This document shows, piece by piece, positions 43,844 to 58,931 of a DNA stretch of 64,000 nt. The number at the start of each line of letters is the position of its first letter. Within the stretch, counting starts at the first letter, position 1. The DNA comes from an uncultured Elioraea sp. GTDB lineage: Bacteria; Pseudomonadota; Alphaproteobacteria; Acetobacterales; Acetobacteraceae. The stretch is from the NCBI GenBank assembly GCA_937928775.1, contig CALFVI010000019.1, forward strand, positions 1 through 64,000, given 5' to 3'. Below the pieces are notes generated by a model, which did not search any database, was not told the DNA's origin, and saw only the letters and a list, made by a program, of their open reading frames with translations. Made by a program: the position numbers and the translations under genes.

Positions 43844-43852
43844 GTGTCGGCG

Positions 43853-44503
43853 TCACTGGCTTGCCCAGACGATGCGGGCGATCCAGGCCACCTCATCGAG
43901 ATTGAGGCTTCGCCCCGGGTAAGCTGGGTTCAGCGAGGCGAGCTCGATCTTGCGGGCGGATTTGCGCACGAGCTCCTTCGCCATCACCTCGCCTTGGCGT
44001 GTCTTCACCACCACGCGATCGCCGCGGCGCGTCGGCGCGTTCGGCGAGACGATGATGACGTCGCCGTCGCGGTACACTGGCTCCATGGAGTCGCCGCTGA
44101 TCTCGAGCGCATAGGCATTGGGGTCGCTGATCGCGGGCAGTTCGATCTCGTCCCACCCACCTCCTGTCGGATAGCCTGCATCATCGAAGAAGGCATCCGA
44201 CCCCGCCTGGGCGAGGCCGATCAGCGGCACCCGCCGCGGCCCGAGCATACCGGGCCGACGCGCCTGCGCGGTTCCGCCGGTGATGAGGGCGGTGAAAGTC
44301 TCGAGCGGTGCTCCGACGGCGTCGAGGGCTTTGACGATGGTCTCGAAGGAGGGCCAGCGCGGCTTGCCGCCCTGTTTTCGCTTGGAGGGATTGAAGGTGG
44401 TGGGATCCAGTCCCGCCTTGCGGGCGAGCCCTGAGGGGCTGAGCCCGTGTTCGGCGGCGAGGGCGTCGATTGCCTTCCAGACGTCTTCGTGGCGGAGAGT
44501 CAT
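43853..44503 (-). CDS. S24/LexA-type transcriptional repressor
   Basis: The 216-residue product has an N-terminal helix-turn-helix ('HGLSPSGLARKAGLDPTTFN') and a C-terminal S24 peptidase domain. The self-cleavage machinery looks intact: an Ala-Gly bond in 'LAQAGSDAFF', the serine in 'EISGDSMEPVY' and the lysine in 'DRVVVKTRQGEVMAK'. Similar proteins are widespread chromosomal genes in alphaproteobacteria, so it may not be phage-derived, but it diverges from the virion cassette across a 127-bp gap like a prophage repressor. A palindrome TTGTAGG-N8-CCTACAA touches its start codon, suggesting self-repression. Confidence 0.9.
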   Translation of the reverse strand: MTLRHEDVWKAIDALAAEHGLSPSGLARKAGLDPTTFNPSKRKQGGKPRWPSFETIVKALDAVGAPLETFTALITGGTAQARRPGMLGPRRVPLIGLAQAGSDAFFDDAGYPTGGGWDEIELPAISDPNAYALEISGDSMEPVYRDGDVIIVSPNAPTRRGDRVVVKTRQGEVMAKELVRKSARKIELASLNPAYPGRSLNLDEVAWIARIVWASQ

Positions 44504-44524
44504 TGTAGGGACTTTGTCCTACAA
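44503..44524. promoter_or_regulatory. Palindromic operator at the repressor start
   Basis: TTGTAGG-N8-CCTACAA has perfect 7-bp arms and begins at the repressor's start codon. A bound repressor would block its own initiation region and could reach the divergent cassette promoter. Confidence 0.55.
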
Positions 44525-44630
44525 AACCCGACGATCGGCATTAGGAAAGAGTTCCGTTTAGGCTTGCGGTCCTGACACTCTTGTGGGTAAATGTTCCTGT
44601 TTTGTTCACTGCCCAGCCAAGAGGTTTGCT

Positions 44631-45005
44631 ATGCCCGCCGCAGCCACACGCCGCTCCGGACCCGTTCTCGCCGACCTCTCGCGCGCTGAACCGTTCGCCA
44701 GCGCGGAAGAGGCCTGGTTCTGGACCATGGCCGCGCTCGCCGCGCGCAACGCCGGTGCGCGCATCGTCGCTGGCCAGGGGCTGAAGGTCCGCCCCTGTGA
44801 ACCTGACGATGTGATCCGCTGCCTTGATCGTCTGTATCGCCAGCGCCGGATCGACATCGCGCATCTTCACGTGCTACGCCGCTTCGGCGATCTGCAGCGG
44901 GCGCCTGATCCGTATCATCCTGCAGACCGAACCGCGCTCGTGCTCTGGCGCGAGGCCATGTCGCGCCTGGAGTGGCCGTTGAAGATGAAGGGGATCGTGG
45001 CGTGA
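44631..45005 (+). CDS. Conserved hypothetical protein at the head of the virion cassette
   Basis: A 124-residue protein with 'SAEEAWFWTMAALAARNAGA', 'PCEPDDVIRCLDRLYRQRRI' and 'LWREAMSRLEWPLKMKGIVA'. I recognise this type from similar prophage-like loci in Acetobacteraceae but know no function. ATG 44631 follows AAGAGG. It overlaps the next gene by 4 bp and is the first gene after the divergent repressor, so it may be regulatory or early in the programme. Confidence 0.78.
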   Translation: MPAAATRRSGPVLADLSRAEPFASAEEAWFWTMAALAARNAGARIVAGQGLKVRPCEPDDVIRCLDRLYRQRRIDIAHLHVLRRFGDLQRAPDPYHPADRTALVLWREAMSRLEWPLKMKGIVA

Positions 45006-45445
45006 GTCGGTTCCCCGGTCGCGGCGCCGAGCCGCTGGTGTGGATCGCCTTCTCCGGCCGCGCCGACCTCGCCTGGCAGCGTCTGCTGCGCCCGGGCTTC
45101 CGCCATTGCTTCGCCGCGCTCGCCGATCAAGGGGGCTGGACGGTGGTCGACCCTCTGGCGGGGCGGGTGGTGGTCGAGCGACTCGGGGTTGCGCCGGATT
45201 TCGACCTGCCCGCGTTCTGGCGCCGGGCAGGGTTCCGGGTGCTTGGACCGTTCGTCCCCGCGCCGCCGCGCCGCAGCCTGTTTGCTCTCCTCGCCCCCTT
45301 CACCTGCGTGACGGTCTGTCTTCGCCTGCTTGGGCGTGACGATGCGCTCGTGCTGACGCCGCGCGGCCTCTATCGCCGGCTTGCCGTGCTGCTTGCGTCG
45401 TCTGATAGGAAAAAATTCTTGACTAGCACCGCCCTCTCCGCGTAG
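45002..45445 (+). CDS. Conserved hypothetical protein, cassette gene 2
   Basis: A 147-residue protein starting at GTG 45002 within the stop of the gene before. It has 'LVWIAFSGRADLAWQRLLRP', 'RHCFAALADQGGWTVVDPLA' and a hydrophobic stretch 'LLAPFTCVTVCLRLLG' around residue 105. No family or function is recognised. A perfect 11-bp stem-loop follows 63 bp downstream. Confidence 0.72.
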   Translation: MSRFPGRGAEPLVWIAFSGRADLAWQRLLRPGFRHCFAALADQGGWTVVDPLAGRVVVERLGVAPDFDLPAFWRRAGFRVLGPFVPAPPRRSLFALLAPFTCVTVCLRLLGRDDALVLTPRGLYRRLAVLLASSDRKKFLTSTALSA

Positions 45446-45507
45446 AAGGATCGCGCCAAGGGGCGTCCTGTGCCCCGACGGCGCCATCCTCCCTCCCCCG
45501 ACGACTA

Positions 45508-45536
45508 CGGCGGCCGGGCCAAGCACCCGGCCGCCG
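45508..45536 (+). repeat. Perfect 11-bp stem-loop before the virion genes
   Basis: CGGCGGCCGGG pairs with CCCGGCCGCCG around CCAAGCA. It separates the two leading genes from the structural genes and may end or process the transcript; no T-run follows. Confidence 0.55.
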
Positions 45537-45579
45537 GATTATCGTCCGCACCCCACCGCCAGATCATGGAGTGAGCACA

Positions 45580-45831
45580 ATGGGTGGCCTGTTCCGGGCG
45601 CCGAAGCCGCCGGCGCCGCAAGTCGCGACCCCGCCGGCCCCGCGCCCCGGCGCTGCGGCCACGTCTGCCGCCGCATCCGCCGCAGGCAGCGGGGACGAGG
45701 AGCGCGCCCGCCGCCTCGCCGCCCTCGAAGCCCGACGCCTCGGCCGCGCCGGCACTGTCGCCACCTCGTGGCGCGGTGTTCTTGCCGACTCCCTGCCGCC
45801 CGTCCGCCGCAAGTCGCTGCTCGGCGAATGA
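45580..45831 (+). CDS. Small phage protein before the portal gene
   Basis: An 83-residue protein starting 'MGGLFRAPKPPAPQ', with an Ala/Pro-rich N-terminal half and a basic C-terminal half ending 'PPVRRKSLLGE'. Proteins of this type commonly precede the portal gene in T7-like prophages. GTG 45571 is an alternative start, but GGAG lies 8-11 bases before ATG 45580. It overlaps the portal start (ATGA). Confidence 0.72.
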   Translation: MGGLFRAPKPPAPQVATPPAPRPGAAATSAAASAAGSGDEERARRLAALEARRLGRAGTVATSWRGVLADSLPPVRRKSLLGE

Positions 45832-47315
45832 CGCCCTCTCTTCCGCCCGAAACCATCCTGGCTCAGGCCGAGCGGGCCTTCGCCAGGCGCCGCCCGTGGG
45901 AAGCCCTCTGGAAGGACTGCTACGACCACGCTCTTCCGGCACGCCCTGGCGACGGCGCCACCCCGCTTTATGACGGCACCGCCCCCGATGCTGTCGAACA
46001 GCTCGCCGCCTCCCTGCTTGCCGAGCTCACTCCGCCATGGACGCGCTGGTTCTCCTTCGTTCCCGGCCGTGCGCTACCCCCCACGCTGGCGCGCGACGCA
46101 GCCGCGGAGGCGCTGGAGACCGCCGCCGAGACCCTGGCCGGCGAGTTCGAGCGCTCCAACTTCGTGGTCGAACTACACCAATGCTTCCTCGACCTGGTCA
46201 TCGCGGGCACGGCCTGCCTCGCGGTCGAGGAGCTTCCCCCTGGTGAGCCGAGCGCGCTTCGCTTCACCGCCGTCCCGCTCGCTGAGCTCGCGCTCGAGGA
46301 CGGGCCAACGCGACCGCTCGATACGGTCTATCGCAGGCTCCGCTTGACGGTGGCGGAACTGCGCTCGCGCTTTCCTGCCGCGCGCCTGCCAGAACGGCTG
46401 AGCAAAGAGGAGGGCGGAGGAGAAGCGGTTGGCCACACCGTGATCGAGGCGGTCGTGCCGGATGGCAGCGCCTATGCCTATACGGCCATCTTGCGCGACG
46501 ACGACGAGCCCTTCGTACTTGCCCGCGGCCGCTTCGAGGCTTCGCCCTTCATCGCCTTCCGTTGGATGAAGGCGCCCGGCGAGACCTACGGCCGATCCCC
46601 CGTTATGAAGGCTCTGCCCGACATCCGCACCGCCAACAAAGTGGTCGAGCTCATCCTGAAGAATGCCTCGATCGCCGTGACGGGGATCTGGCAAGCGGAC
46701 GACGACGGCGTGCTCAACCCAGCCAACATCCGTCTCGTGCCGGGCGCGATCATCCCAAAGGCGGTCGGCTCATCTGGCCTCACCCCTCTTGCCGCACCGG
46801 GCCGCTTCGATGTCAGCCAGATCGTGCTCAACGACCTTCGCGCGCGAATCCGCCACGCCCTGCTCGCCGACCGGCTCGGCCCGGTTCAGGGCGCACGTAT
46901 GACCGCGACCGAGGTGATGGAGCGCTCGGCTGAGATGGCGCGCCTGCTCGGCGCCACCTTCGGGCGGCTGCAGACCGAGCTCCTCTATCCGCTGATCGAG
47001 CGCTCTCTTGCCGTGCTGCGCCGCCGCGGTCTCGTGCCGCGCTTCGCTCTCGACGGGACAGAGGCGGCGATCGTCTGGCGGTCGCCGCTCGCACAGTGGC
47101 AGGCGCGGACGGAGGCCTCCGGCACGCTCGCCTGGCTTGAGGTGGTGCGCGCGCTCGGCCCCGCCGCCGCCGGCACCGCCGACCTCGCCGCCGCCTCGCG
47201 TTGGCTCGCCTCGCTCTACGGCGTGCCGCCCGACCTCGTCGTGTCCGAGGCGGAGGAACGCGCCGCCCTCGCCACCCTCGCGCTTGATCCCCTCGCCCCC
47301 GACGCCTCCGCCTGA
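45828..47315 (+). CDS. Portal (head-tail connector) protein, T7 gp8-like
   Basis: The portal forms the 12-subunit ring through which DNA enters and leaves the capsid. The 495-residue product has 'WKDCYDHALPARPG', 'YDGTAPDAVEQLAASLLAEL', 'WTRWFSFVPG', 'RWMKAPGETYGRSPVMKALP' and 'KVVELILKNASIAVTGIWQA', the pattern of podovirus head-to-tail connecting proteins. ATG 45828 overlaps the previous stop; the longer frame upstream is in another gene. Scaffold and capsid follow. Confidence 0.92.
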   Translation: MTPSLPPETILAQAERAFARRRPWEALWKDCYDHALPARPGDGATPLYDGTAPDAVEQLAASLLAELTPPWTRWFSFVPGRALPPTLARDAAAEALETAAETLAGEFERSNFVVELHQCFLDLVIAGTACLAVEELPPGEPSALRFTAVPLAELALEDGPTRPLDTVYRRLRLTVAELRSRFPAARLPERLSKEEGGGEAVGHTVIEAVVPDGSAYAYTAILRDDDEPFVLARGRFEASPFIAFRWMKAPGETYGRSPVMKALPDIRTANKVVELILKNASIAVTGIWQADDDGVLNPANIRLVPGAIIPKAVGSSGLTPLAAPGRFDVSQIVLNDLRARIRHALLADRLGPVQGARMTATEVMERSAEMARLLGATFGRLQTELLYPLIERSLAVLRRRGLVPRFALDGTEAAIVWRSPLAQWQARTEASGTLAWLEVVRALGPAAAGTADLAAASRWLASLYGVPPDLVVSEAEERAALATLALDPLAPDASA

Positions 47316-47329
47316 CAAGGACCAAACCG

Positions 47330-48088
47330 ATGGCCGATAACCTGATCACGATGACGCTCGAGGACGACAAGACCACCCGCCCCGAGCCGAAACGCGGCAA
47401 GCCCTGTCCGCCCGACGTGCCGGAGAAGTTCTGGGACGAGGAGACGGGCGAGATCCGGCTCGATGCCCTGCTGAAGTCATACCGCGAGCTCGAGCGCAAA
47501 CTGTCGCGCATGGTCAGCGTGCCGGGCGATGGCGCGGACGAGGAGGAGCGTCGCCGCTTCCTGCGCGCCCTCGGCGTGCCGGAGAGCCCGGAGGAGTATC
47601 ACATCGAACCTCGTCACCCTCTCGTCACCGCCGATCCGGACGTCAATCGCAGGCTGCATGAGGCGGGATTTACCCCGGCCCAGGTGCAGCTCGTCTACGA
47701 CCTCGCCGCCGAACGCCTGCTGCCGCTGATCGCCGAGGCGGCGCAGCTTTTCGAGGCGGAGCGGCAGATCGAACGGCTGAAGGAGCATTTCGGCGGCGAG
47801 GAGCGCTGGCAGCGCGCAGCGCGGCAGCTCGCTGCCTGGGGCAAGGCGAACCTGCCGGAGGCAGTGTTCGAAGCGCTTTCGTCGACGTACGAAGGCGTGC
47901 TCGCTATGCAGCGGATGATGCAGCGTAATGAGCCCGGCATCCTGAAAGATGCGGAGCCTGCGCGGGCGCCGAACGAGGATGAGCTGCGCGCGCTGATGCG
48001 CGACCCGCGCTACTGGCGCCGGCGCGACCCGGCGATCGTCGAGCGCGTGGCGGAAGGCTTCCGGCGGCTCTTCCCTGAGGAACGCTGA
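47330..48088 (+). CDS. Capsid assembly scaffold protein, T7 gp9-like
   Basis: A 252-residue acidic, helix-rich protein between the portal and capsid genes, the place of the T7 scaffold. It has 'EKFWDEETGEIRLDALLKSY' at the start, a coiled-coil-like centre ('EAERQIERLKEHFGGEERWQ'), and a charged C-terminus ('AIVERVAEGFRRLFPEER') as expected for binding capsid protein. The assignment rests mostly on order, size and composition. Confidence 0.82.
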   Translation: MADNLITMTLEDDKTTRPEPKRGKPCPPDVPEKFWDEETGEIRLDALLKSYRELERKLSRMVSVPGDGADEEERRRFLRALGVPESPEEYHIEPRHPLVTADPDVNRRLHEAGFTPAQVQLVYDLAAERLLPLIAEAAQLFEAERQIERLKEHFGGEERWQRAARQLAAWGKANLPEAVFEALSSTYEGVLAMQRMMQRNEPGILKDAEPARAPNEDELRALMRDPRYWRRRDPAIVERVAEGFRRLFPEER

Positions 48089-48115
48089 CCCCTCCGTTCG
48101 CTTGCCGTTTCGTTC

Positions 48116-48143
48116 CGCCCGCGCCTGGCATCCCGCGCGGGCG
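48116..48143 (+). repeat. Stem-loop between scaffold and capsid genes
   Basis: CGCCCGCGC pairs with GCGCGGGCG around a 10-base loop, 28 bp after the scaffold stop. The rest of the 253-bp gap shows no gene. It may be a processing site or a weak terminator. Confidence 0.5.
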
Positions 48144-48341
48144 TTGCGGCCGGGGTTTGAGCGTGCCCGCCTAATCCTCCCCGCGCTCGCCCCAGCCGCC
48201 CTCTCTTTCCCCCTGCGGTCAACCCTCTGCGGCCCGCAGGCTTCCCCAGCCCCGTGCCGGCCGCGCCCCGTTCCCCGGGCGCGACAACCGCGCCGGGCCC
48301 GCCTCACCCGACCCCGCAACCAGATCGCGAGAGACCGATCC

Positions 48342-49175
48342 GTGTCCACTTCCATCGACCGCGCCTTCGTCAAGCACTTCCAGGCGGAGGTGCACGAGGC
48401 CTATCAGCGCCTCGGCTCAAAGCTCCGCCCGACCGTCCGCTCTAAGTCAGGAGTCAAGGGCGCCTCGACTGTGTTCCAGCGCGTCGGTAAGGGTGTTGCC
48501 GGCACCAAGGCCCGCCACGGCGCCGTGCCGGTGATGAACCTCGACCACTCGCCTGTCGAATGCTTCCTCGCCGACTATTACGCCGGCGATTGGATCGATA
48601 AGCTTGATGAGCTCAAGGTCAACCACGATGAGCGGGCGGTGATCGCCAACGCCGGCGCCTATGCTCTCGGCCGTAAGACGGATGAGCTGATCATTGCGGC
48701 GCTCGATCAAGCAACGCGCGAGGCGACCGGCACCGATCCCGGCCTCACCGACGGCGACGGCCTGACGCGGGAGAAGATCCTGCTCGCTTTCGAGATGCTC
48801 GGCCAGGCCGACGTGCCAGACGACGGCGAGCGCTACGCCGTGATTGGCTGGAAGCAGTGGTCCGACCTGCTCAGGATCCCGGAGTTCGCTAACGCCGACT
48901 ATGTCGGCGCCGACGAGCTCCCCTGGCGCGGCACGCAGGCGAAGCGCTGGCTCGGCACGCTCTGGATCCCGCATTCCGGGCTGACGCGCACCGGCAACGT
49001 CCGCTTCTGCTACTGGTACCACCGCACCGCGGTCGGCCACGCTGTGGGCGCTGAAGTGCAGACCGACATCACCTGGCACGGTGAGCGCGCGGCCTGGTTC
49101 GTCAACAACATGATGAGCCAGGGTGCGGTGCTGATCGATGCCGAGGGTGTCGTGCGCCTGCGCTGCAGAGAATAA
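48342..49175 (+). CDS. Major capsid protein, podovirus type
   Basis: A 277-residue protein in the T7 gp10 position. It begins 'MSTSIDRAFVKHFQAEVHEA' and has 'VPVMNLDHSPVECFLADYYA', 'DERAVIANAGAYALGRKTDE' and a C-terminal part with 'NVRFCYWYHRTAVGHAVGAE' and 'WHGERAAWFVNNMMSQGAVL', the layout of HK97-fold podovirus capsids. GTG 48342 is used; the frame is open upstream but that part lacks family character. Hairpins flank the gene on both sides. Confidence 0.9.
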   Translation: MSTSIDRAFVKHFQAEVHEAYQRLGSKLRPTVRSKSGVKGASTVFQRVGKGVAGTKARHGAVPVMNLDHSPVECFLADYYAGDWIDKLDELKVNHDERAVIANAGAYALGRKTDELIIAALDQATREATGTDPGLTDGDGLTREKILLAFEMLGQADVPDDGERYAVIGWKQWSDLLRIPEFANADYVGADELPWRGTQAKRWLGTLWIPHSGLTRTGNVRFCYWYHRTAVGHAVGAEVQTDITWHGERAAWFVNNMMSQGAVLIDAEGVVRLRCRE

Positions 49176-49190
49176 TCCGCTGACCTGTCG

Positions 49191-49222
49191 GCGGCGCCCC
49201 GGGCCCGCGCCCGTGGCGCCGC
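49191..49222 (+). terminator. Hairpin after the capsid gene
   Basis: GCGGCGCC pairs with GGCGCCGC around a 16-base GC-rich loop, 15 bp after the capsid stop, and is followed by CCCTTTCCGTTTCCC. In T7 a partial terminator sits in this same position after gene 10. Confidence 0.5.
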
Positions 49223-49277
49223 GCCCTTTCCGTTTCCCGCAATCACCGTTGCGTCCTCGTCTCGAGGAGACCGACCG

Positions 49278-49847
49278 ATGGCACTCTCTGCCCTCGCTCT
49301 TTGCGCGCGCGCCCTGCTGAAGATCGGTGCCACCCCGATCGCCTCGTTCGACGAAGGCACCGCCGAAGCGGAAGTCGCGGCCAATCTCTACCCGTCGGTC
49401 CGCGACTCACTGCTCTCCGCCTATCCGTGGTCGTTCGCGACTGCACAAACGTCTCTGCCACGCCTTGCTGCCGCTCCGATTGCGGACTACGCGCACGCCT
49501 TCCAACTGCCCGCCGATTTCCTGCGTGCGCTCTCCGCCGGCCGGCCGGGCCAGGGTCGCGGTATCCCCTACCGCATCGCCGAAAACCGCTTGCACGCCGA
49601 CCCGCCGGAGATCGTGCTCACCTACATTTTCCGCCCACCTGAGCAGAACCTCCCGCCCTTCTTCGACTCCGCCCTGATCGCGCGTCTCGCCGCCGAGTTC
49701 ACCATTCCGCTGACCGAGAACACCGCCCGGGCCGACCTCTTGTTCCGGCTCGCCGAAGCCGAGTTCCGTGCTGCGCGGCTGACCGACAGCCAGCAGGACA
49801 CGCCGCCAGCGTTGCAGGACTTCACCCTGATCGGAGCCCGCGGCTGA
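49278..49847 (+). CDS. Tail tubular protein A-like (T7 gp11) connector protein
   Basis: A 189-residue protein after the capsid gene, in the gp11 place. Pattern: 'ALCARALLKIGATPIASFDE', 'SLLSAYPWSFATAQTSLPRL' and 'YAHAFQLPADFLRAL', the usual tail-tube/gatekeeper signature in T7-like prophages, and 'SALIARLAAEFTIPLTEN'. It should dock beneath the portal. The next gene follows after 1 bp. Confidence 0.88.
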   Translation: MALSALALCARALLKIGATPIASFDEGTAEAEVAANLYPSVRDSLLSAYPWSFATAQTSLPRLAAAPIADYAHAFQLPADFLRALSAGRPGQGRGIPYRIAENRLHADPPEIVLTYIFRPPEQNLPPFFDSALIARLAAEFTIPLTENTARADLLFRLAEAEFRAARLTDSQQDTPPALQDFTLIGARG

Positions 49848-49848
49848 G

Positions 49849-51729
49849 ATGAACCAGCTGAAGCGGATTAAGACGAGCTTCGCCGCCGGCGAGCTTTCGC
49901 CCGAACTGATCGGGCGAAGCGATCTGCGGGCCTACGAGAACGGTGCCGCTCGTCTGTCCAACGTCTTCATCCTGCCCACGGGCGGGCTGCGCCGCCGCCC
50001 TGGCCTTCGCCATCTCGGCATGCTGCCCGGCCGCGCCCGTCTGATCGCCTTCGAGTTCTCGACCGAGCAGACCTATCTTCTGGTGCTGACCGACCGCCGG
50101 TTAGGCGTTTGGCGCGGTGACGCGGAGATCGCCGCGATCGCAACCCCCTGGACGGACGCGCATCTCGCCAACCTCGCCTGGACACAGAGCGCTGATACGC
50201 TTCTCGTCGCTCACCCAGAGGTGGCGCCGCAGCGCATCACGCGCACGAGCCATACCGACTGGACCATCACGCCTTGGACGTTCCGCGCGGAGCCGTTCTA
50301 CAGGTTCGCCCCCGAAACGGTAACTCTCATCCCTTCGGACACCGCAGGAAGCATCACAGTCACGGCCTCGGCGCCCGTCTTCCAGCCCGCCCATGTCGGG
50401 GTGACATTCCGCATTGGCAGGAAGCGTGTTCGCATCGATTGGGTCGATTCCGCGACGTCTGCCGGCGCGACCGTGCTCGAGCCGCTGTCCGGCACCGCGC
50501 CGACGGCCGAGTGGGACGAGGCGGCCTTCTCGCCCGTGCGCGGCTGGCCCGTCTCGCTTTGCTTCCACCAGGACCGCCTCGTCATCGGCGGATCGCGCGA
50601 CCTGCCAAACCGTCTCTGGCTCTCGCGCACTGGCGACCTGTTCAACTTTGATCTCGGCACCGGGCTTGATGACGAGGCGATCGAGTTCGCCCTCGTCTCG
50701 GACCAGGTGAATGCGATCCGCGCCGTCTTCTCTGGTCGACACCTTCAAGTGTTCACCTCAGGTGCGGAATGGATGGTCTCTGGCGATCCGCTGACGCCTG
50801 CGAACATCCAGCTCAATCGCCAGACGCGCATCGGCAGCCCTGTCGATCGTACGGTACCGCCCGTCGACGTCGACGGGGCGACCATCTTCGTCGCGCGCTC
50901 GGGCCGTTCCGTCCACGAATTCGCCTACACGGACGTCGAGCAGGCCTACCAGGCGGCAGACCTTGCCGTGCTTGCCCGGCATCTCGTGCGCGATCCCGTC
51001 AGCATGGCCTATGACCAGACGCGGCGTCTGTTGCACATCGTGATGGCCGATGGTTCGCTCGCCACCCTCACCCTCTACCGCGCTGAACAGGTCACGGCCT
51101 GGACACGGCAGACGACCGAGGGCGCATTCCGTTCCGTTGCCGAGATTGACGGCGCGGTCTATGTGGTAACCGAGCGTTTCGGCACGCATCGTCTCGAGTG
51201 TTTCGACGACACGGTGCTGACCGATGCCGCGGTCACGGGGGAGAACCCGGCCGGAGCCACGCTCTGGTCCGGGCTCGACCATCTTGAAGGTCGCCAGGTC
51301 GCGATCGTCGGCGACGGCGCGCCGCGCGGACGGGACACCGTCATCGCTGGTCGAATCGAGATTCACCCGCCGGCGAAACGGCTTGAGGCGGGGCTGGCCT
51401 ACACCCACGTCGTTGAGCCGCTGCCGCCCGAGCTCCTGACTCCTATCGGTGCGCGCACAGGCCCGGTTCGTCTCGTCGCCGTCACCTTCCGCCTGCTCGA
51501 GACGGCCGCGCTTTCCGTCGATCTCGGCCGCGGTCCGATCGCCATACCGTTCCGCCGCCTCGGCCCTGGCGTGCTCGACGCGGAACCGCCGCGCTTCACC
51601 GGCGATCGCACCATTCGCGCCCTCGGCTGGCGCCGCGACGTCGCCTCCCCACTTTGGCGCATCGAAAGCGACGTGCCGCTGCCGATGACGCTGCTTTCCG
51701 TCACCACCGACATGAGGCTCAACGTTTGA
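49849..51729 (+). CDS. Tail tubular protein B-like (T7 gp12 / stabilisation) protein
   Basis: A 626-residue beta-rich protein that should form the tail nozzle. It starts with the typical 'IKTSFAAGELSPELIGRSDL' and 'LSNVFILPTGGLRRRPGLRH', then repeats such as 'RLIAFEFSTEQTYLLVLTDR', and 'VSLCFHQDRLVIGGSRDLPN'. It overlaps the next gene's ATG by 1 bp at the stop. Gene order and sequence agree. Confidence 0.9.
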   Translation: MNQLKRIKTSFAAGELSPELIGRSDLRAYENGAARLSNVFILPTGGLRRRPGLRHLGMLPGRARLIAFEFSTEQTYLLVLTDRRLGVWRGDAEIAAIATPWTDAHLANLAWTQSADTLLVAHPEVAPQRITRTSHTDWTITPWTFRAEPFYRFAPETVTLIPSDTAGSITVTASAPVFQPAHVGVTFRIGRKRVRIDWVDSATSAGATVLEPLSGTAPTAEWDEAAFSPVRGWPVSLCFHQDRLVIGGSRDLPNRLWLSRTGDLFNFDLGTGLDDEAIEFALVSDQVNAIRAVFSGRHLQVFTSGAEWMVSGDPLTPANIQLNRQTRIGSPVDRTVPPVDVDGATIFVARSGRSVHEFAYTDVEQAYQAADLAVLARHLVRDPVSMAYDQTRRLLHIVMADGSLATLTLYRAEQVTAWTRQTTEGAFRSVAEIDGAVYVVTERFGTHRLECFDDTVLTDAAVTGENPAGATLWSGLDHLEGRQVAIVGDGAPRGRDTVIAGRIEIHPPAKRLEAGLAYTHVVEPLPPELLTPIGARTGPVRLVAVTFRLLETAALSVDLGRGPIAIPFRRLGPGVLDAEPPRFTGDRTIRALGWRRDVASPLWRIESDVPLPMTLLSVTTDMRLNV

Positions 51730-52184
51730 TGGCCCAGCTCGTTCCCATCGCCTCGATCGTCACCGGCGTGGCCGGTCTCGTCGGGGCCCAGCAGCAGTAT
51801 CAGGCGCAGAAGCGCGCCTTCGCCGCCCAGCAGCAGGCGATGCAGCAGCAGGAGCAGGCACGCGAGGCGCAGCTTCGCGCGGCCGCCGAGGAGGCGCAGC
51901 GCCGGCGTCGCGACATGCTCGCCCGCACCATCGCCTCCACCCGCGCCCGTCTCGCCGCCGGCGGCGTCGCCGCGACGGACGGCTCGAGCGTGGCCTTGCT
52001 TTCCGGGCTCGAACAGGAGGCCGACGAGCAGGACGCCTTCGACGAACGCGCGCTTGCGCTCCGCCTCTCTGTGGGGCGGCGGTCGTTGCTTGAACCGACA
52101 GGCAACCTCACCCCTTTCATTCGCGCCGGCAGCCAGCTCGCGGCGGGGCTCTCGCAGAGCTTCCGATCCTTGCTCAACCTCTGA
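51729..52184 (+). CDS. Internal virion protein-like (T7 gp14 position)
   Basis: A 151-residue protein with an N-terminal small-residue hydrophobic helix ('IASIVTGVAGLVGAQQQYQA') and a Gln/Ala/Arg coiled coil (about 20-75), then a Ser/Gly part ending 'SQLAAGLSQSFRSLLNL'. Such proteins occupy the gp14 place and are thought to be ejected into the envelope at infection. gp15 and gp16 counterparts do not follow. ATG 51729 shares its A with the preceding TGA. Confidence 0.78.
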   Translation: MAQLVPIASIVTGVAGLVGAQQQYQAQKRAFAAQQQAMQQQEQAREAQLRAAAEEAQRRRRDMLARTIASTRARLAAGGVAATDGSSVALLSGLEQEADEQDAFDERALALRLSVGRRSLLEPTGNLTPFIRAGSQLAAGLSQSFRSLLNL

Positions 52185-52200
52185 ACCCGAGGCTCCGACT

Positions 52201-54492
52201 ATGTCCGAGCACATCGTGATCGGCGACGTCGCGCCGCGCATCCAGTATGTCGCCTCCGGCTCCCAGACCGTCTTCACCTATCCTTTCCCGATCTTCAAGC
52301 CAACCGACCTGCAGGTCTTTGTCGACGGCGAGCGTGTCACCGATGGCTATGCTGTGAGCGGCGCAGGCCGTTCCGAGGGCGGAGCCGTCACCTTCACCGC
52401 CGCGCCGCGGGCAGGTGCGGTGATCACGCTCCGCCGCCTGCTGCGCATCGAGCGCGTCAGCGACTTCCAGGAGAGCGGCGAGCTGCGGGCCCGTGTGCTC
52501 AATGACGAGTTCGACTATCAGACCGCAGCGCTGCAACAGCTCGCCGACGACTTCTCGCGCGCCGTCCAGACCGACCCCACCGACATCAGTGCCCCGTTGA
52601 TCCTACCTTCGCGCGCGGCGCGCGCCTCACGCCTGCTCGGGTTCGACTCGGGTGGGTCGCTCCAGCTCTATCCGTTCGAGTCGGGCGGCGGGCAGATCCT
52701 GTTTCGCCAGGACGGTGCTGGGGCGGTGCTGCGCACGGCACAGGACAAACTCACGGAGTCGCTCTCGGCGGCCGACTTCGGCGCCGTTGGCGACGGCGTG
52801 GTCGACGACACCGAGGCGCTCGCTGCTGCCTTCGCCGCCGCCAGCGCGCTGAAACGCACGCTGTTCATTCCATCGGGGACCTTCCGCATCACGCGCGGAC
52901 TTGTTCTGTCCGGCGGGGCGGCCGGTCTTGTCATGCAAGGCCAAATTGTCGCCGATCTCGCCGAACCCGAACCCGCCCTCACCCTTGGCGATGGTGGTTC
53001 GGCGCGCAATGGCGAGAAGCTCTACTGGAACATCCGCATCACCCGCTCCTCCCTCTCCTCGTGGCTTGACGAGCGCGAGGTCGGCGTCGTTGTGCGGAAC
53101 GTCGACGCAAGCCTCATCTACATCGCTGAGGTGAGCCGGTTCACGATCGGCGTACAAAGCCTCGGGGACCGCCGCGGCGTGGAGGACACAACGTTCATCT
53201 TCGGCCGTATCGTTGACAATCGCATCGGCCTGGATGTGCGTTGCGCCACCGCCGAAGGCTGGAATGCCTCGGTACGCTACTATGGCGGACATTTTGCAGT
53301 CAGTTCCTCCTCCTGGCCTGCACTCGACCGCTTCGGCGTGCGCTTCTCGACCGCGCCTGGCGCCTATCGGCTGCACAACCGGCATGTCTTCGATGCGCAA
53401 AATTTCGAACTCCGTCAGCAGGGTACGAACCGAGCCATTCCCTTCCTCGTCGAGGTCGATGCGCGGGCGATCATCGCCCGCGACATCCGCATGGAGGGAT
53501 GTTCGCCAATTGTCGCGCTGCATGAGGCCAACGCGACCGATTGCCGATACGACGTCGCCTGGGCCAGCCAGGCCTATCGTCTCGATGTCGATTATGGATC
53601 GGGCACAACCCGCGCAGGCGCCATTCTGCGCACGCACCACCAGGCTGCCGCCCATGTCGCCACCACGCGGCTGATTGGCAACGTGCCGAACCTCCGCACA
53701 GCGGCCTTCCGCTGGCAGGCCGACACTTTGGGGTTCGACCAGCTTGCTTGCGTCAGCACCGCGGTCAGCGGTACCCCCTCCACGCTCGGCGACTTCCTGT
53801 TTCCTGGCCTTGATGGTTACACCCTGACGTCCCGCGGCGTCATCCTGGGCCCATCGCGCGGGCTCGGTTTCGTGGTCGACACCCGCGGCTGTAAGGAGTT
53901 CGCCCTGGCGGTCGATGCTGACGACCCGCGGCTGTTCGTGCACTGCTTCGACGCGTCGGGACAGGTCCTGACTGACAGCGCGGGTCGTCTTGCGCGCGCC
54001 TCCAACCAGACACTCGAGTGGAACCCGACCGCGCGCTGGTGGCAAAGTTCGGCCGACCTTGCCGATGCAACGCTCACGCGCCTGCAGGCAATCCGTCTCG
54101 CGGCAGAGGTCGCCACCGCGGTAATTGGCCTCGCCCGCGTCGATCGCGACTATGAGGTGCGCGCCCTTCGTCTCTACTGCGAGCCGCGGCACGCGCCGGC
54201 GCTCCTCTACGGCCTGCCCAACCTGCCGCACGGATCGCGCGAGATCGTGGTCGAAACGAGCTGGGACCCGCCCTCGCTCGCCCCCGGTGCGACGACGCAG
54301 CTTAATATCCCGGTCCCTGGCGCGTTTCCGGGTGACTTCGTCCAGGCCTCCTTCTCCGTCTCTACCACCGGTGTGGTGTTCCTCGCCACGGTCGGTGCCG
54401 GCGGCGTGGTGACGGTGATCGCCTGGAATCGCTCAACGATCGCGATCGACCTCGCGGGAGGCACGCTCCGGGTCCGCGTGGTAAAGGCGTGA
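52201..54492 (+). CDS. Tail fibre / tailspike protein
   Basis: A 763-residue protein. Residues 1-130 match the T7 gp17 N-terminal attachment domain ('IQYVASGSQTVFTYPFPIFK', 'VITLRRLLRIERVSDFQESG'). At about residue 195 the motif 'DFGAVGDGVVDDTEAL' starts a pectate-lyase-like beta-helix, typical of tailspikes. The C-terminal part is beta-rich and receptor-like. It starts at ATG 52201, 16 bp after the gp14-like gene. A glycan-cleaving activity is possible but no catalytic residues can be assigned. Confidence 0.9.
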   Translation: MSEHIVIGDVAPRIQYVASGSQTVFTYPFPIFKPTDLQVFVDGERVTDGYAVSGAGRSEGGAVTFTAAPRAGAVITLRRLLRIERVSDFQESGELRARVLNDEFDYQTAALQQLADDFSRAVQTDPTDISAPLILPSRAARASRLLGFDSGGSLQLYPFESGGGQILFRQDGAGAVLRTAQDKLTESLSAADFGAVGDGVVDDTEALAAAFAAASALKRTLFIPSGTFRITRGLVLSGGAAGLVMQGQIVADLAEPEPALTLGDGGSARNGEKLYWNIRITRSSLSSWLDEREVGVVVRNVDASLIYIAEVSRFTIGVQSLGDRRGVEDTTFIFGRIVDNRIGLDVRCATAEGWNASVRYYGGHFAVSSSSWPALDRFGVRFSTAPGAYRLHNRHVFDAQNFELRQQGTNRAIPFLVEVDARAIIARDIRMEGCSPIVALHEANATDCRYDVAWASQAYRLDVDYGSGTTRAGAILRTHHQAAAHVATTRLIGNVPNLRTAAFRWQADTLGFDQLACVSTAVSGTPSTLGDFLFPGLDGYTLTSRGVILGPSRGLGFVVDTRGCKEFALAVDADDPRLFVHCFDASGQVLTDSAGRLARASNQTLEWNPTARWWQSSADLADATLTRLQAIRLAAEVATAVIGLARVDRDYEVRALRLYCEPRHAPALLYGLPNLPHGSREIVVETSWDPPSLAPGATTQLNIPVPGAFPGDFVQASFSVSTTGVVFLATVGAGGVVTVIAWNRSTIAIDLAGGTLRVRVVKA

Positions 54493-54782
54493 GACGGCTG
54501 CACGATCTCGTCAGCGCTGAGATCGAACGGGCGATCGAACGTGTGATTTCCTCCTACCAAGCCTTCGCCTCCTCGGCGCCAATCGCGACGGATGCGAAGG
54601 ACTTCGCTGCCCACCATGCCGCCTGCAAGGCGGCGCTCGCGCATCTCGACCTGTTGTTGAAGATCGCGAAGATCACCGAGGTTCCGACGACGGGGGGACA
54701 GGGCGAGGACGAACGCCTCGCCCTCGTCGCCGAGGCGCGGGCCGCCGTCTGCGCCGATGACGTTCGCGAGGACGATGCATGA
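54489..54782 (+). CDS. Small protein in the terminase small-subunit position
   Basis: A 97-residue, mostly helical, acidic protein ('ISSYQAFASSAPIATDAKDF', 'LDLLLKIAKITEV') between tail fibre and large terminase, each overlapping by 4 bp. T7 TerS (gp18, 89 residues) is in the same place and of similar size. There is no sequence motif that confirms this, so TerS is an inference. Confidence 0.7.
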   Translation: MRRLHDLVSAEIERAIERVISSYQAFASSAPIATDAKDFAAHHAACKAALAHLDLLLKIAKITEVPTTGGQGEDERLALVAEARAAVCADDVREDDA

Positions 54783-56260
54783 CGGCACCGACCGAGCTTC
54801 GCTTCCCGGAGTTCGTCTGGATCTGGAACCGCCTGAATGCCGCAACGACCCCGGCACATCACTTGCGCATCGCGCGCTGGCTCGGGCTTGCCTGGGAACG
54901 GGGGGAGACGCGGCTTCTGCTCATGTGCTTCCGCGGTGCTGGCAAGTCCACGGTGGTTGGTCTTTATTGCGCCTGGCTTCTGTCGCGGCGCCCCGACCTT
55001 CGCCTGCTCGTTCTGTCGGCTGAACAGGGGCTGGCGACACGGATGGTGCGCAACGTCCGCCAAATCATTCGCCGCCATCCCTTCTGCCGGCATCTCCTCC
55101 CGCGGCACGGCGGCGAATGGGCGGCCGACCGATTCACCGTCAGGCGGTCCGGTGTGTCGCGCGACCCGTCGATGGTCGCGCGCGGTATCGAGGCGAACAT
55201 CACTGGCAGCCGCGCCGACGTGGTGATCTGCGACGACGTGGAAGTACCTGGCAACAGCGATACGGCCACGAAACGGGCAGACTTGCGGGAGCGTCTGGCC
55301 GAGATCGCGTTCGTGCTGGTCCCTGGCGGGCAGATGCTCTTCATCGGCACGCCGCATACGACAGACACGATCTACGCCACGGAACAGCGACCCGGTCGCG
55401 ACACGCCATTCCTCGCGGGCTTCCGGCGCCTTGTCATTCCCCTCCTCGACTCGGATGGATCATCCGTGTGGCCGGAACGGTTCACGCCAGAACGGATTGC
55501 GGAACTGCGCGCCCGGGTTGGTCCGCGTGCCTTCGCCGCCCAAATGCAGCTGGAGCCGCAGCCGCCCGAGGACGCACGCCTCGACCCCGCGGCCATGGTT
55601 CCCTACGAGGACGAGCTGACACTGCATGCCGCAAACCACGGGTTCCGGCTGCTTCTAGGCGGGCGTACCTTGGTTGCCGCCTCTGCGTTCTGGGATCCGG
55701 CATTCGGCGCGCCGGGTCGCGGCGATGCCTCCGTCTTCGCCGCTCTGTTCACCGATGCCGAAGGAACGCGCTACCTGCACCGAGTCGCCTACCTCACGCA
55801 TGACCCGCGGGCAGGGACCGACGCCGCAACCCAGCTCTGCCGCCAGGTCGCGCGCCTCGCCCAGGAGCTTCACCTTCCCTCGGTCACGGTGGAGAACAAT
55901 GGGCTCGGCCGTTTCCTGCCCGGACTGTTGCGGGCAGAAATGGCGCGGGCGCGTGTCGCGTGCTCCGTGGTCGAACGCGCCTCGACACGGTCGAAGACGG
56001 AACGGATCCTCGCCGCCTTTGAGCCGCTCCTTGCGGCGCGGCGGCTTTGGGCGCATCAGAGCGTCTTCGCCACGCGGCTGATCGAGGAGATGCGCGAGTG
56101 GCGCGCCGAGGCCCGCGCCGCGGCCGATGATGGGCTCGACGCGGTGGCCGGCGCCATCCTGGCGGAACCCGCCCGTCTCGCCCGCATCGCACAGGTGATT
56201 CGCGAAACGGATTGGCGCCCGACCGAAAGCTTTCGCGGGGGCGAGGATTTCACCCCCTGA
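54779..56260 (+). CDS. Terminase large subunit, T7 gp19-like
   Basis: The motor that packages DNA into the prohead. The 493-residue product has Walker A 'CFRGAGKST' (50-58), Walker B 'ADVVICDDVEV' with Asp152-Asp153, and 'MLFIGTPHTTDTIYATEQRP'. The C-terminal nuclease part has acidic residues in 'SAFWDPAF' and 'RGDASVFAALF', and 'VTVENNGLGRFLPG'. No frameshift or lost motif is seen, so packaging could still work. Confidence 0.95.
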   Translation: MTAPTELRFPEFVWIWNRLNAATTPAHHLRIARWLGLAWERGETRLLLMCFRGAGKSTVVGLYCAWLLSRRPDLRLLVLSAEQGLATRMVRNVRQIIRRHPFCRHLLPRHGGEWAADRFTVRRSGVSRDPSMVARGIEANITGSRADVVICDDVEVPGNSDTATKRADLRERLAEIAFVLVPGGQMLFIGTPHTTDTIYATEQRPGRDTPFLAGFRRLVIPLLDSDGSSVWPERFTPERIAELRARVGPRAFAAQMQLEPQPPEDARLDPAAMVPYEDELTLHAANHGFRLLLGGRTLVAASAFWDPAFGAPGRGDASVFAALFTDAEGTRYLHRVAYLTHDPRAGTDAATQLCRQVARLAQELHLPSVTVENNGLGRFLPGLLRAEMARARVACSVVERASTRSKTERILAAFEPLLAARRLWAHQSVFATRLIEEMREWRAEARAAADDGLDAVAGAILAEPARLARIAQVIRETDWRPTESFRGGEDFTP

Positions 56261-56272
56261 GATTGCGCGCGC

Positions 56273-56566
56273 TCAGGCTGGGGCGGCTTCGGCCTGCTTG
56301 AGAATTTCGCTGCGGTGGCGCTCCACCCCCGCTGCGGTGATCTCGAACCAGCCATCGGCGCGTTCACGGCACAATCCCATCCCGGCGAGCCGGGCCAGAC
56401 AAGGACCATCCTTCATCGCCGGCGGGCGGCCGACCCGGCCGGCCACACGCAACCGGTGCAGAGCGGAGCGGCAACAGGTTTCCAGGTAGGGCTCGTTCCA
56501 GACCACACCGAAGATATCGTTCCGGCCCGCATGTCGCGCAAGGGTGGGCCGCAAGCGACGGAGCAA
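56273..56566 (-). CDS. Small conserved hypothetical protein, winged-helix-like
   Basis: A 97-residue protein with 'RNDIFGVVWNEPYLETCCRS', 'AMKDGPCLARLAGMGLCRER' and 'GWFEITAAGVERHRSEILKQ'. The last part reads like the wing of a winged-helix DNA-binding protein. It is on the opposite strand between the terminase and the small membrane protein; its start is only 5 bp from the plus-strand gene, so each promoter must lie inside the other gene or upstream. The true start may be further in. Confidence 0.68.
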   Translation of the reverse strand: MLRRLRPTLARHAGRNDIFGVVWNEPYLETCCRSALHRLRVAGRVGRPPAMKDGPCLARLAGMGLCRERADGWFEITAAGVERHRSEILKQAEAAPA

Positions 56567-56571
56567 CGACC

Positions 56572-56904
56572 ATGGACGGAAGCGGCATCACCATCGAATG
56601 GTGGGTCCGAGTGATCGAACTGCCCATCCTGGCGGGGCTGTTCAAGCTGATGTGGGACATCAAGAGGGATGTGATCGCGCGGATCGAGCGCATCGAGTTG
56701 CGCCACGCGGAAACCACGGCCGACCTTCGCGCCGAGATCGCTTCCTTCAAGCTCGAGGTCGCGCGCGGCTACGTGCCCATCCAGATGATGCGCGAACTCG
56801 ACCGCCGCCTATCGCTACAGCTGATGCGCATCGAGGAGAAGCTCGACGTGCTCGGGCCCCGCGCCCGCCCCCGCCGCAGCGAGGCCGAACTGCCGCACGA
56901 CTGA
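56572..56904 (+). CDS. Small one-TM phage protein, possible holin or spanin-like
   Basis: A 110-residue protein with one hydrophobic helix ('WWVRVIELPILAGLFKLMWD', about residues 10-29) followed by a long charged coiled coil (about 35-100). Proteins of this type close similar prophage-like loci. T7 has a one-TM holin (gp17.5) near its terminase genes; here the protein is longer and comes after TerL, so a holin role is only a guess. Confidence 0.72.
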   Translation: MDGSGITIEWWVRVIELPILAGLFKLMWDIKRDVIARIERIELRHAETTADLRAEIASFKLEVARGYVPIQMMRELDRRLSLQLMRIEEKLDVLGPRARPRRSEAELPHD

Positions 56905-56914
56905 CCACGCCCCG

Positions 56915-57757
56915 TCATCGCGGCCTCAGTCGGTATTCGGCCTGGTGACCGAGGGTGGCAAGGATGACGACGGCTGCGCCGACGAGATCGAGCGCGCCCG
57001 GCGCCAGCCCGAACACCAGAGCATCGAACAGCACAGCCCACAGCATGGCGGTGAAATCGAGCGGGGCAAGCCGCGACGGCTCCGTCGCCCGCACCGCAGC
57101 GGTGAGCGCGAGGTTCGCTCCGGTCCAGACGACGCCGTTGACCAGCAGCAAGGCGAGATCGCGCGCGACGGGCGGAACCCAGGTCGCCATCGCGACAGGA
57201 CCGAACAGCACCGCCCCCTGCAGTGCCGGCACCGCCAACGCCACCGCCAACCCCTCACGCGCGCCCAGCTTGCGCGTCGTGATCATCACCCCCGCGGTCG
57301 AGGCGGTGCCGACGAGCGCTGAAAGATAGCCGACCAGCGCCCCCTCGCCCGTCAGGGCCGGCACAATCGGCACCAGGACGCCGAGGAAGGCCAGCCCCGC
57401 CCAAGCCCAGGCGCGCGGCGCCACCCGCTCGCCGAGCACCGCGACCGCAAGCCCCATGGTGAAGAACGGGGCGAGGAAGAACACGATGTAGGCGTCGAGC
57501 AGGGGCAACAGCGCGAAAGCTTGGAAGAAAAAGAAAGCCGAACTCAGGATGAGCCCGCCCCGCAGAGCGTGCAACGCAAGACGCCCCGGCGGGATAGCGC
57601 CAGCCCGCACCGCGACCGGAGCGGAGAGTGCGAGCCCGACCGCGCTGCGCAGGGCGATCACCTGTGCCGAGCCATAAGCCCCCGAAAGCCACTTCGCGAT
57701 CGCATCCAGCACAGCGAACAGCGCGATCGCGATCAGCATCAGCAGAGGCCCGCGCAC
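56915..57757 (-). CDS. EamA/DMT-family transporter
   Basis: A 280-residue inner-membrane protein with ten predicted helices in two EamA repeats ('FFQAFALLPLLDAYIVFFLA' in the first, 'VWTGANLALTAAVRATEPSR' in the second). DMT exporters carry amino acids, nucleosides or other metabolites; the substrate cannot be read. It is divergent from pyrD (97 bp) and marks the return to chromosomal genes after the virion cassette. Confidence 0.9.
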   Translation of the reverse strand: MRGPLLMLIAIALFAVLDAIAKWLSGAYGSAQVIALRSAVGLALSAPVAVRAGAIPPGRLALHALRGGLILSSAFFFFQAFALLPLLDAYIVFFLAPFFTMGLAVAVLGERVAPRAWAWAGLAFLGVLVPIVPALTGEGALVGYLSALVGTASTAGVMITTRKLGAREGLAVALAVPALQGAVLFGPVAMATWVPPVARDLALLLVNGVVWTGANLALTAAVRATEPSRLAPLDFTAMLWAVLFDALVFGLAPGALDLVGAAVVILATLGHQAEYRLRPR

Positions 57758-57854
57758 CCCACTCCCCCTTCGCCGCGTGCGCTCCGCTCATGCCTGCCGC
57801 GCGGAGCCGCGTCCAGACTTCCGCCCGCGCCTCCGGTCGGGCAAAGGGCGTTCG

Positions 57855-58931
57855 ATGCTTCCACCAGCCCTCGCCTCGCGCCTGATGCCGCTTGTGCGCT
57901 GTCTCGACCCCGAGACCGCGCATCGTGCCGGCCTACTCGCCCTCCGCCTCGGTCTTGTTGCCGTCACCTCGACCAGACCCGACCCTCGCCTTCGGGTCTC
58001 CGCCCTGGGGCTCCGCTTCGCCAACCCGGTCGGCCTCGCTGCCGGCTTCGACAAGGATGCGGAGGCGATTCGCCCCCTCTTCGGCCTCGGTTTCGGCTTC
58101 GTCGAGGCGGGCGGGGTGACGCTTCGCCCGCAGCAGGGCAACCCGCGACCGCGCGTCTTCCGACTCGCCGAGGATCGCGCGGTGATCAACCGCCTCGGCC
58201 TCAACTCGGCCGGCTGGGCGGTGGTGAAGCGGCGCCTTGCGCGACTGCGGGCCGAAGGGCCTCTGCCTGGCCCCCTCTTCCTCAATGTCGCCCCGAACAA
58301 GGACTCGCAAGACCCGCTGACCGACATCGCACACGTGGTGGCCGAAGCGTCCCCTCTCGTCGAGGCCTGCGTGCTGAACGTCTCCTCGCCGAACACGCCG
58401 GGCTTGCGCGATTTGCAGGTGGGAGAGCGGCTCGGCGCGCTGGTTTCCGCAGCACGGCAGGCGCGCGGGCAGGCGAAGGCCCGGCTTCTCGTGAAGATCG
58501 CACCCGATCTTGATCCCAAAGCCCTTGAGGCGATCGTCGAGACCGCGATCGCGCACGGTGTTGATGGTCTGATCGTGTCCAACACCACCATCGCACGGCC
58601 GCCCTCGCTGCGCAGCCGGCACGCGTCGCAAGCGGGCGGGCTTTCTGGCAGCCCGCTGTTCGCTCCCTCCACAGCGCTGTTGCGCGAGGCGGCCCGCCTC
58701 GCGCGCGGGCGTCTGACCTTGATCGGCTGCGGCGGGGTCTCCTCCGCCGACCAGGCCTACGCCAAGATTCGCGCCGGAGCGTCTCTGGTGCAGCTCTACA
58801 CCGGGCTGATCTACGAGGGGCCGGGGCTCGTTGCGCGCATCCTCGCCGGCCTCTCCGCCCGCCTTGCCGCCGACGGCTTCGCCTCGATCGCGGATGCCGT
58901 CGGCGCCGATCTCGTCGAGGCCCGCGCATGA
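57855..58931 (+). CDS. pyrD: Dihydroorotate dehydrogenase (quinone), class 2
   Basis: PyrD oxidises dihydroorotate to orotate in pyrimidine synthesis and passes electrons to ubiquinone at the membrane. The 358-residue product has 'FANPVGLAAGFDKDAEAIRP', 'VEAGGVTLRPQQGNPRPRVF', 'INRLGLNSAGW' and the catalytic-serine loop 'NVSSPNTPGLRDLQ', all class 2 features. ATG 57855 gives the normal length; the frame is open upstream. It overlaps the HAD gene by 4 bp. Confidence 0.96.
   Translation: MLPPALASRLMPLVRCLDPETAHRAGLLALRLGLVAVTSTRPDPRLRVSALGLRFANPVGLAAGFDKDAEAIRPLFGLGFGFVEAGGVTLRPQQGNPRPRVFRLAEDRAVINRLGLNSAGWAVVKRRLARLRAEGPLPGPLFLNVAPNKDSQDPLTDIAHVVAEASPLVEACVLNVSSPNTPGLRDLQVGERLGALVSAARQARGQAKARLLVKIAPDLDPKALEAIVETAIAHGVDGLIVSNTTIARPPSLRSRHASQAGGLSGSPLFAPSTALLREAARLARGRLTLIGCGGVSSADQAYAKIRAGASLVQLYTGLIYEGPGLVARILAGLSARLAADGFASIADAVGADLVEARA

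Follow-up and report, generated by a model that had tools for sequence, protein, structure and literature searches.

Gene transfer agents (GTAs) are defined by a list of six features (PMC9662315). The described systems nearest to the locus reported here are RcGTA and CcGTA, alphaproteobacterial, vertically inherited virion clusters of ~14 kb without their own replication; a second recognized alphaproteobacterial type, BaGTA (Bartogtaviriformidae; PMC9662315), is compared here by description only. In a survey of 1,423 genomes, no RcGTA-like cluster was reported in Acetobacterales (62), Azospirillales (13) or Rhodospirillales (24), nor in Rickettsiales (70), Pelagibacterales (5) or several smaller orders (PMC6821227). 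In 2026, Faecalibacterium was reported to carry a GTA resembling a podovirus (PMC12946183). Here, we analyzed a T7-like virion cassette of 14 intact genes (~13 kb, 43,853–56,904) in a 64,000-nt stretch of Elioraea DNA (the window; contig CALFVI010000019.1, coded C19) from a metagenome-assembled genome (MAG) of 2.32 Mb and 81.5% completeness. Elioraea is placed in Acetobacterales (PMC8597652). Comparison between genomes shows what appears to be one chromosomal module, inherited with the host in many families of Alphaproteobacteria and kept by purifying selection. We estimate a probability of about three in four that the cassette is an ancient, vertically inherited GTA locus derived from a T7-type podovirus.

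The cassette shares with RcGTA and CcGTA the traits named above, and a GTA-type three-transmembrane (3TM) holin (PF11351) was found near it in relatives. Antitermination, as predicted for the cassette, would be a further likeness to CcGTA, in which it is exerted by GafZ, a protein reported to lack similarity to known antiterminators (PMC11150451). The cassette differs from RcGTA and CcGTA in its virion module of the T7 podovirus type, in the absence of GTA_TIM, in its S24 repressor and predicted Q21-like OrfA, as opposed to RogA/GafYZ, and in the families that hold it. The large terminase (TerL) of RcGTA groups with those of P22-like headful phages (PMC7947584), whereas that of the cassette is T7-type. 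We rejected an RcGTA-like identity because the RcGTA marker GTA_TIM (PF13547), which matched 35/385 class genomes, is not shared with cassette genomes, G510 apart (G-, L- and f-numbers are our codes for compared genomes, loci and families); it gave no match in G000. This non-overlap agrees with the survey's lack of RcGTA-like clusters in Acetobacterales and Rhodospirillales. The mutual exclusion (Fisher p 0.005, with G510 left out of the cassette set) ignores ancestry and may reflect lineage alone. FpGTA of Faecalibacterium, also compared by description, is likewise a podovirus-like GTA-like element, with two virion operons and lysis genes, but it occurs in all twelve Faecalibacterium genomes examined in that study and not in Gemmiger or Subdoligranulum, and packs 8.4–8.9 kb (PMC12946183). 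A podovirus-like GTA is therefore a known kind; in the literature searched, with most subscription journals and preprints beyond reach, we met no T7-type, class-wide and host-congruent one, and recognized no paper that presents this module as a GTA. Elioraea MAGs have been listed with “incomplete” prophages (PMC8597652), which may be this cassette.

Among the features of the GTA definition, the cassette shows particle proteins derived from caudoviricetes, full endogenization (GTAs often span multiple loci; the cassette has chromosomal flanks and lies at two places in 7 genomes), and mostly vertical inheritance with host co-diversification, seen in tree congruence and in guanine-cytosine (GC) content. 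The definition's other three features concern the particles themselves: a content of mostly random host DNA, incomplete packaging of the GTA's own genome and delivery of DNA to other cells. Its genes follow in the order below. The preliminary description of the window had begun the unit at 44,631; the real start is 43,853, since the divergent S24 repressor accompanies the cassette in other species and so belongs to the unit. Its account of virion genes in T7 order was borne out, with portal to TerL on one strand and all matched by Pfam or PHROGs, as were the overlapping starts and stops without a frameshift (several 4-nt overlaps among the virion genes) and the host-like base composition, the last both in the window and across genomes.

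40186..41793, plus strand: left host anchor, class I lysyl-tRNA synthetase gene lysS (PF01921)
43853..44503, minus strand: S24/CI-type repressor with helix-turn-helix (HTH), Ala-Gly cleavage site and catalytic Ser and Lys, residues read by eye (PF00717, E 6e-24; phrog_4, 3e-29)
44503..44524, no strand: inverted repeat TTGTAGG-N8-CCTACAA at the repressor start, a possible operator (found once in the window and never in 100 shuffles)
44631..45005, plus strand: OrfA, predicted Q21-like antiterminator (AlphaFold model, second-look fold matches)
45002..45445, plus strand: OrfB, predicted permuted papain/NlpC-P60-like cysteine hydrolase (conserved His35 and Cys102, model)
45419..45448, plus strand: putative late promoter TTGACT-N18-TAGAAG with TAGGAAAAAATTC upstream
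45508..45536, plus strand: GC-rich hairpin, candidate terminator, ~60 nt past the late promoter (11-bp stem, no T run; found once in the window and never in 100 shuffles)
45580..45831, plus strand: small conserved protein (MGGLF...KSLLGE) 5' of the portal gene (cluster c19 in 12 loci; no match in a Pfam search)
45819..47315, plus strand: portal, head-tail connector (PF12236, E 1.4e-126)
47330..48088, plus strand: T7-type scaffold (PF05396, E 1.9e-16)
48339..49175, plus strand: major capsid protein (PF19821, E 3.5e-87; phrog_3437)
49278..49847, plus strand: tail tube protein A (phrog_394, E 1.2e-44)
49849..51729, plus strand: tail tube protein B, or nozzle (phrog_376, E 9.4e-147; PF25675)
51726..52184, plus strand: gp14-like internal virion protein (phrog_418, E 5.1e-8)
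52198..54492, plus strand: tail fibre or spike with T7-type N-terminus and pectate-lyase-like domain (phrog_1640, E 7.3e-29; PF12708; PF03906 below cut-off)
54489..54782, plus strand: small protein in the TerS slot (phrog_31793, E 1.5e-18, a family without assigned function)
54779..56260, plus strand: T7-type TerL with intact motor and nuclease (phrog_38, E 2.9e-92)
56572..56904, plus strand: protein with N-terminal transmembrane (TM) segment and coiled coil, both read by eye; in relatives it heads the lysis region (phrog_29007, E 8.8e-22)
57777..58931, plus strand: right host anchor pyrD (PF01180)

To follow inheritance, we compared a FastTree tree of six cassette proteins with RpoB in 56 of the 61 genomes; G564 was excluded manually, G038 and G558 had no rpoB hit, and G290 and G372 had fewer than four markers. 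RpoB open reading frames (ORFs) were chosen by similarity to that of the window. Cassette and RpoB distances correlated strongly (Mantel r 0.874, reached by 0/999 permutations), both within the family (0.878, n = 21) and outside it (0.823, n = 35). The two trees share 32/53 splits, whereas none of 500 label shuffles gave more than 2, and 8/9 multi-member families are monophyletic in the cassette tree. Cassette GC tracks that of the rpoB locus (r 0.991, 58 genomes). The ratio of nonsynonymous to synonymous substitution rates (dN/dS, or omega; Nei-Gojobori) was low, as the preliminary description had proposed to check: 0.014–0.224 for cassette genes in three pairs that include the window, with host neighbour genes in the same pairs at 0.067 to 0.341 and a similar dS. 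The tail fibre gave 0.055–0.089 in these pairs and up to 0.29 in others. In some pairs, values for the gp14-like gene (up to 0.84) went with wrong frames or over-long ORFs and were discarded.

The same locus and flanks recur in related genomes, again as proposed. Among 60 loci fetched for comparison, with GC from 31 to 77%, the order S24-OrfA-OrfB-portal-scaffold-capsid-tubes-fibre-TerL recurs. The lysS gene lies in the fetched stretches of f1, f28, f59, f97, f128 and f151 (beside the control half in f151), and pyrD in those of f1, f28, f40, f51, f62, f93, f97, f105 and f128; in four families (f1, f28, f97 and f128), both anchors flank the cassette. Counted by hand in the 50 family genomes with TerL, 27 had lysS no more than 25 kb from terL (28 with G097, where it shares the portal contig), pyrD was within 15 kb in 28, and one or both anchors were beside terL in 37; in the remainder, the anchors were on other contigs, more distant or unlisted. 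By eye, no lysS-pyrD linkage was seen in genomes lacking TerL, among the matches listed for both anchors. In L124 and L149 (f131), a fibre-like gene lies on the opposite strand upstream of S24 and not before TerL.

TerL matches (E ≤ 1e-20) occurred in 50/200 family genomes (24/102 genera) and in 60/385 class genomes (48/277 genera), the class set including several fragments and G510, a partial, phage-like match at 35%. A single match was present in 47/50 family and 52/60 class holders, and most of the others were pieces. The window's TerL is 90% identical to that of E. thermophila and 77% to that of E. tepidiphila, and the portal is present in 6/7 Elioraea genomes, the seventh being 75% complete. 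Some cassette holders have genomes of just 0.9–1.5 Mb. At E ≤ 1e-10, 12/398 genomes of a phylum sample matched: seven hold the alphaproteobacterial cassette type at 50% or more (G269 in two pieces, 50% and 37%), G755 of the same class matched at 35%, and four of other classes matched at 33–41%. L015 (CP051228.1), titled Mesoflavibacter, holds a TerL locus of the alphaproteobacterial cassette type, and its title may be wrong.

Seven genomes carry their virion genes at two separate sites, with 60 kb to 1.23 Mb between them or each on its own contig. The portal is 1.23 Mb from the capsid-TerL block in G577, ~235 kb in G500, 160 kb in G375, 140 kb in G418 and 60 kb in G252; it is on another contig in G306, G470 and G263 (the second place of G263 lying outside the fetched set), and only ~11 kb away in G241. 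Across eight fetched cases, the second place carried S24, OrfB and portal in 8/8 and OrfA and scaffold in 7/8. lysS is still close to the portal place in G418, and pyrD still adjoins the capsid-TerL half in G375, G241 and G252. With virion genes so far apart, one particle could hardly hold the whole cassette. G125, which has the genus code of two holders, has suffered an 11.8-kb loss that leaves lysS, the LPG-synthase-like gene, S24, ~135 bp, the TM/coiled-coil gene and an unchanged downstream flank. This loss is internal and speaks for domestication, since an excising prophage would come out at its own boundaries. At the level of genome comparison, domestication of the cassette is well supported by its descent with the host, a composition that tracks that of the host, the split loci and this deletion from within.

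Separately, the portal gene of G252 (C2:1262464-1280781) is in two pieces ~17 kb apart. In L144–L146 (G269, G388 and G558, of one genus code), TerL is encoded as two ORFs, an ATPase and a nuclease (202 and 287 amino acids in L145, the only one of the three in which families were scanned); between them lie three ORFs on the other strand, for a DnaB helicase, for a regulator with two HTHs and one more.

We scanned the ORFs of the cassette and part of those in the window's flanks, the last three on the right by PHROGs only. As initially described, no integrase and no RNA or DNA polymerase was among them, nor were replication genes or a primase, so that the scanned ORFs lack the integrase, polymerase and replication genes of a functional T7-type temperate phage. 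The cassette also has no long protein of the gp15/gp16 core kind. No integrase- or replication-like cluster recurred in the 60 loci and the window (recurrent clusters only, partly by eye), of the 48 direct-repeat families at 42,800–58,200 the 20 largest showed no att-like bracketing of the cassette, and ARAGORN found no tRNA gene in the window. The scanned flanks are household-like: polyphosphate kinase, FliF, FliG, FHIPEP, glutamate-cysteine ligase, a helicase, lysS and the LPG-synthase-like gene, with EamA, pyrD and a HAD hydrolase on the right. Within this scope, none of the signs that the preliminary description had named as speaking for a phage (integrase, replication genes, att repeats, presence in a single strain) was found, and TerL is spread across the class. 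The cassette is not a young prophage, as that description had inferred, given its host-congruent tree, class-wide presence and shared chromosomal site.

With motifs read by eye, the Walker A and B residues of TerL were present in 61/61 relatives and the nuclease acids in 58/58 with letters there; with motor and nuclease thus invariant, packaging is under selection. In the relatives scanned as examples, the TM/coiled-coil gene follows terL and is followed by a PF07486 hydrolase; some also carry the PF11351 holin in this lysis region. A PF07486 search of 17 family genomes gave 6 above the cut-off and 10 matching at E ≤ 1. The earlier statement that there is no lysin holds for PF07486 throughout the window's MAG but not more widely, because relatives carry the hydrolase and OrfB has a hydrolase-like predicted fold.

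The control region was examined by alignment and structure modeling. Among 51 S24 sequences (two short ones dropped), the HTH Trp is present in 51/51 and the Ala-Gly, Ser and Lys are retained in 39/51. The other 12 lack the catalytic Ser and Lys, and nearly all of them also lack Ala-Gly (f28, f47, f68, f93, f105, f131 and f136); in these, control has probably moved away from self-cleavage. A class-wide shared operator was rejected, because the inverted repeats that precede S24 are not the same from genome to genome. The OrfA model (47 sequences) had a predicted local distance difference test score (pLDDT) of 81.7, and its top three second-look matches were all phage 21 Q (Z 6.5, 6.2 and 6.2, the next 2.9), scores below the level that is safe alone; OrfA is predicted to be a Q21-like antiterminator. 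In OrfB, His35 and Cys102 are at least 90% conserved, and the model (pLDDT 88.5) best matched 6v98 (Z 7.2) and 3kw0 (Z 5.2) on second look, consistent with a predicted permuted papain/NlpC-P60-like cysteine hydrolase in which His precedes Cys.

A TTGAC-N15-18-TA promoter follows orfB in 36 of 47 scored loci, compared with 1.3 expected from shuffles (14 of the 61 genomes were unusable). In the window it is preceded by TAGGAAAAAATTC, with the upstream element TAGGAAAAA; TAGGAA stands upstream in 18/21 family members listed and AAGGAAAAT in 4/4 f90 members. Where the order is permuted and terS and terL follow orfB (L127), the promoter element precedes terS. Among eight portal-less capsid blocks, four (L117, L128, L142 and L143) have TAGGA/TCCTA within a promoter-like site upstream of mcp, L118 has a site without it, and L123, L132 and L133 have no site; TAGGA/TCCTA near mcp as a shared control motif is suggestive only. 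Folding of the hairpin is much stronger than that of shuffles in several relatives (10 shuffles each). orfA, the promoter after orfB and the hairpin are arranged as in the late control of phages (Q, pR' and tR').

A GTA cycle consistent with these features would run as follows. The S24 repressor would hold the divergent early promoter until cleavage or another form of relief allowed OrfA and OrfB to be made. At the conserved late promoter that follows orfB, OrfA would load onto RNA polymerase and let it read past the hairpin into the operon that runs from portal to lysis genes. Heads of the T7 type would form, and TerL would fill them with host DNA, because the unit lacks a replicating genome. 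Cells would then lyse, in relatives by the hydrolase and in some of these with the holin, and the short-tailed particles would bind kin and deliver DNA.

We also sought free phages related to the cassette. Pelagibacter phage EXVC031P and L395 (IMGVR_UViG_2894471438_000002) have homologous portal, capsid and tube A proteins in a similar order, but their genomes are 34 kb and their portals are 25–38% identical to those of the cassettes; over the stretch inspected, the EXVC031P genes carry hypothetical annotations. L395 is a phage with a Prim-Pol primase (PF09250) and its own TerL, which is absent from the cassettes. It reaches 72% in capsid and 70% in tube A, and 25–34% in portal and 21–36% in tube B. 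The nearest complete phage in INPHARED gave 44% in capsid and 33% in portal, and TerL reached at most 33% among the matches listed. MT838907 (5 kb, human faeces; 58.5% capsid, 52.9% portal) may be a cassette piece.

Several observations weigh against a vertically inherited GTA. The sharing with L395 shows that exchange with phages has occurred, the cassette tree does not recover f51 as monophyletic, and 21/53 splits differ from those of RpoB. In wider comparisons, omega was 0.10–0.35 in G154–G197 (gp14 left out) and at its highest 0.41 (portal, G024–G112). T7-like TerL proteins are described as sequence-specific (PMC7947584). Neither the OrfA nor the OrfB model gave a significant Foldseek match (E up to 0.001), the window's hairpin folds no more strongly than shuffles (z −0.6, 10 shuffles), and the putative operator, terminator and antiterminator roles come from models and sequence patterns. 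No PF07486 hydrolase was found in the four Elioraea genomes searched. A TerL match is lacking in 150/200 sampled family genomes, which makes the cassette dispensable and often absent. Particles and DNA transfer would be the products of a locus known here from its genes. The proposal of a domesticated, podovirus-derived particle such as a GTA thus stands as to domestication, with GTA packing and delivery as its best reading.

The alternative that survives best, though we consider it unlikely, is a domesticated particle with another use, such as killing kin or competitors, as PBSX-like particles do, or releasing DNA by lysis, so that DNA is packed without delivery. It would need the same genes, and both the pectate-lyase-like domain of the fibre and the linked release genes in relatives would suit it. 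However, the fibre is under purifying selection rather than the fast diversification expected of a weapon, and a pure killer would not need the invariant motor and nuclease residues of TerL. A decaying prophage relic without present function is very unlikely: the missing Elioraea hydrolase, the frequent absence within the family and the 12 repressors without a cleavage apparatus would fit decay, but the window's ORFs are intact, dN/dS in pairs with the window is 0.01–0.22, the cassette is present in genomes of 0.9–1.5 Mb and the promoter element is shared between families. A minimal prophage or capsid-forming satellite that still moves, relying on a helper or the host for integration and replication, is likewise very unlikely, for although it would have the S24 control and full virion set, and the E. 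tepidiphila copy is stored in IMG/VR as a 12.3-kb viral contig, it conflicts with the host-congruent tree, the shared site, the split loci, the internal deletion, the lack of integrase and primase in the scanned ORFs (for which we rejected a capsid-forming satellite) and the IMG/VR contigs, none above 25.6 kb among the best 80 of 476 for portal, and only L395 among the best 80 of 114 for capsid. A tailocin was rejected because capsid and TerL are kept.

Returning to the GTA, we lean toward a broader view, held somewhat less firmly: the cassette would be a second, unrelated class of alphaproteobacterial GTA, derived from a T7-type podovirus before many families split, kept in streamlined genomes of 0.9–1.5 Mb, found in families without RcGTA and fired by a phage-21-like antitermination switch. 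If so, dedicated DNA-transfer particles would have arisen at least twice in one bacterial class, their ecology could be tested in culturable species, and what databases now label as small or defective proviruses would have to be seen as genes of the host.

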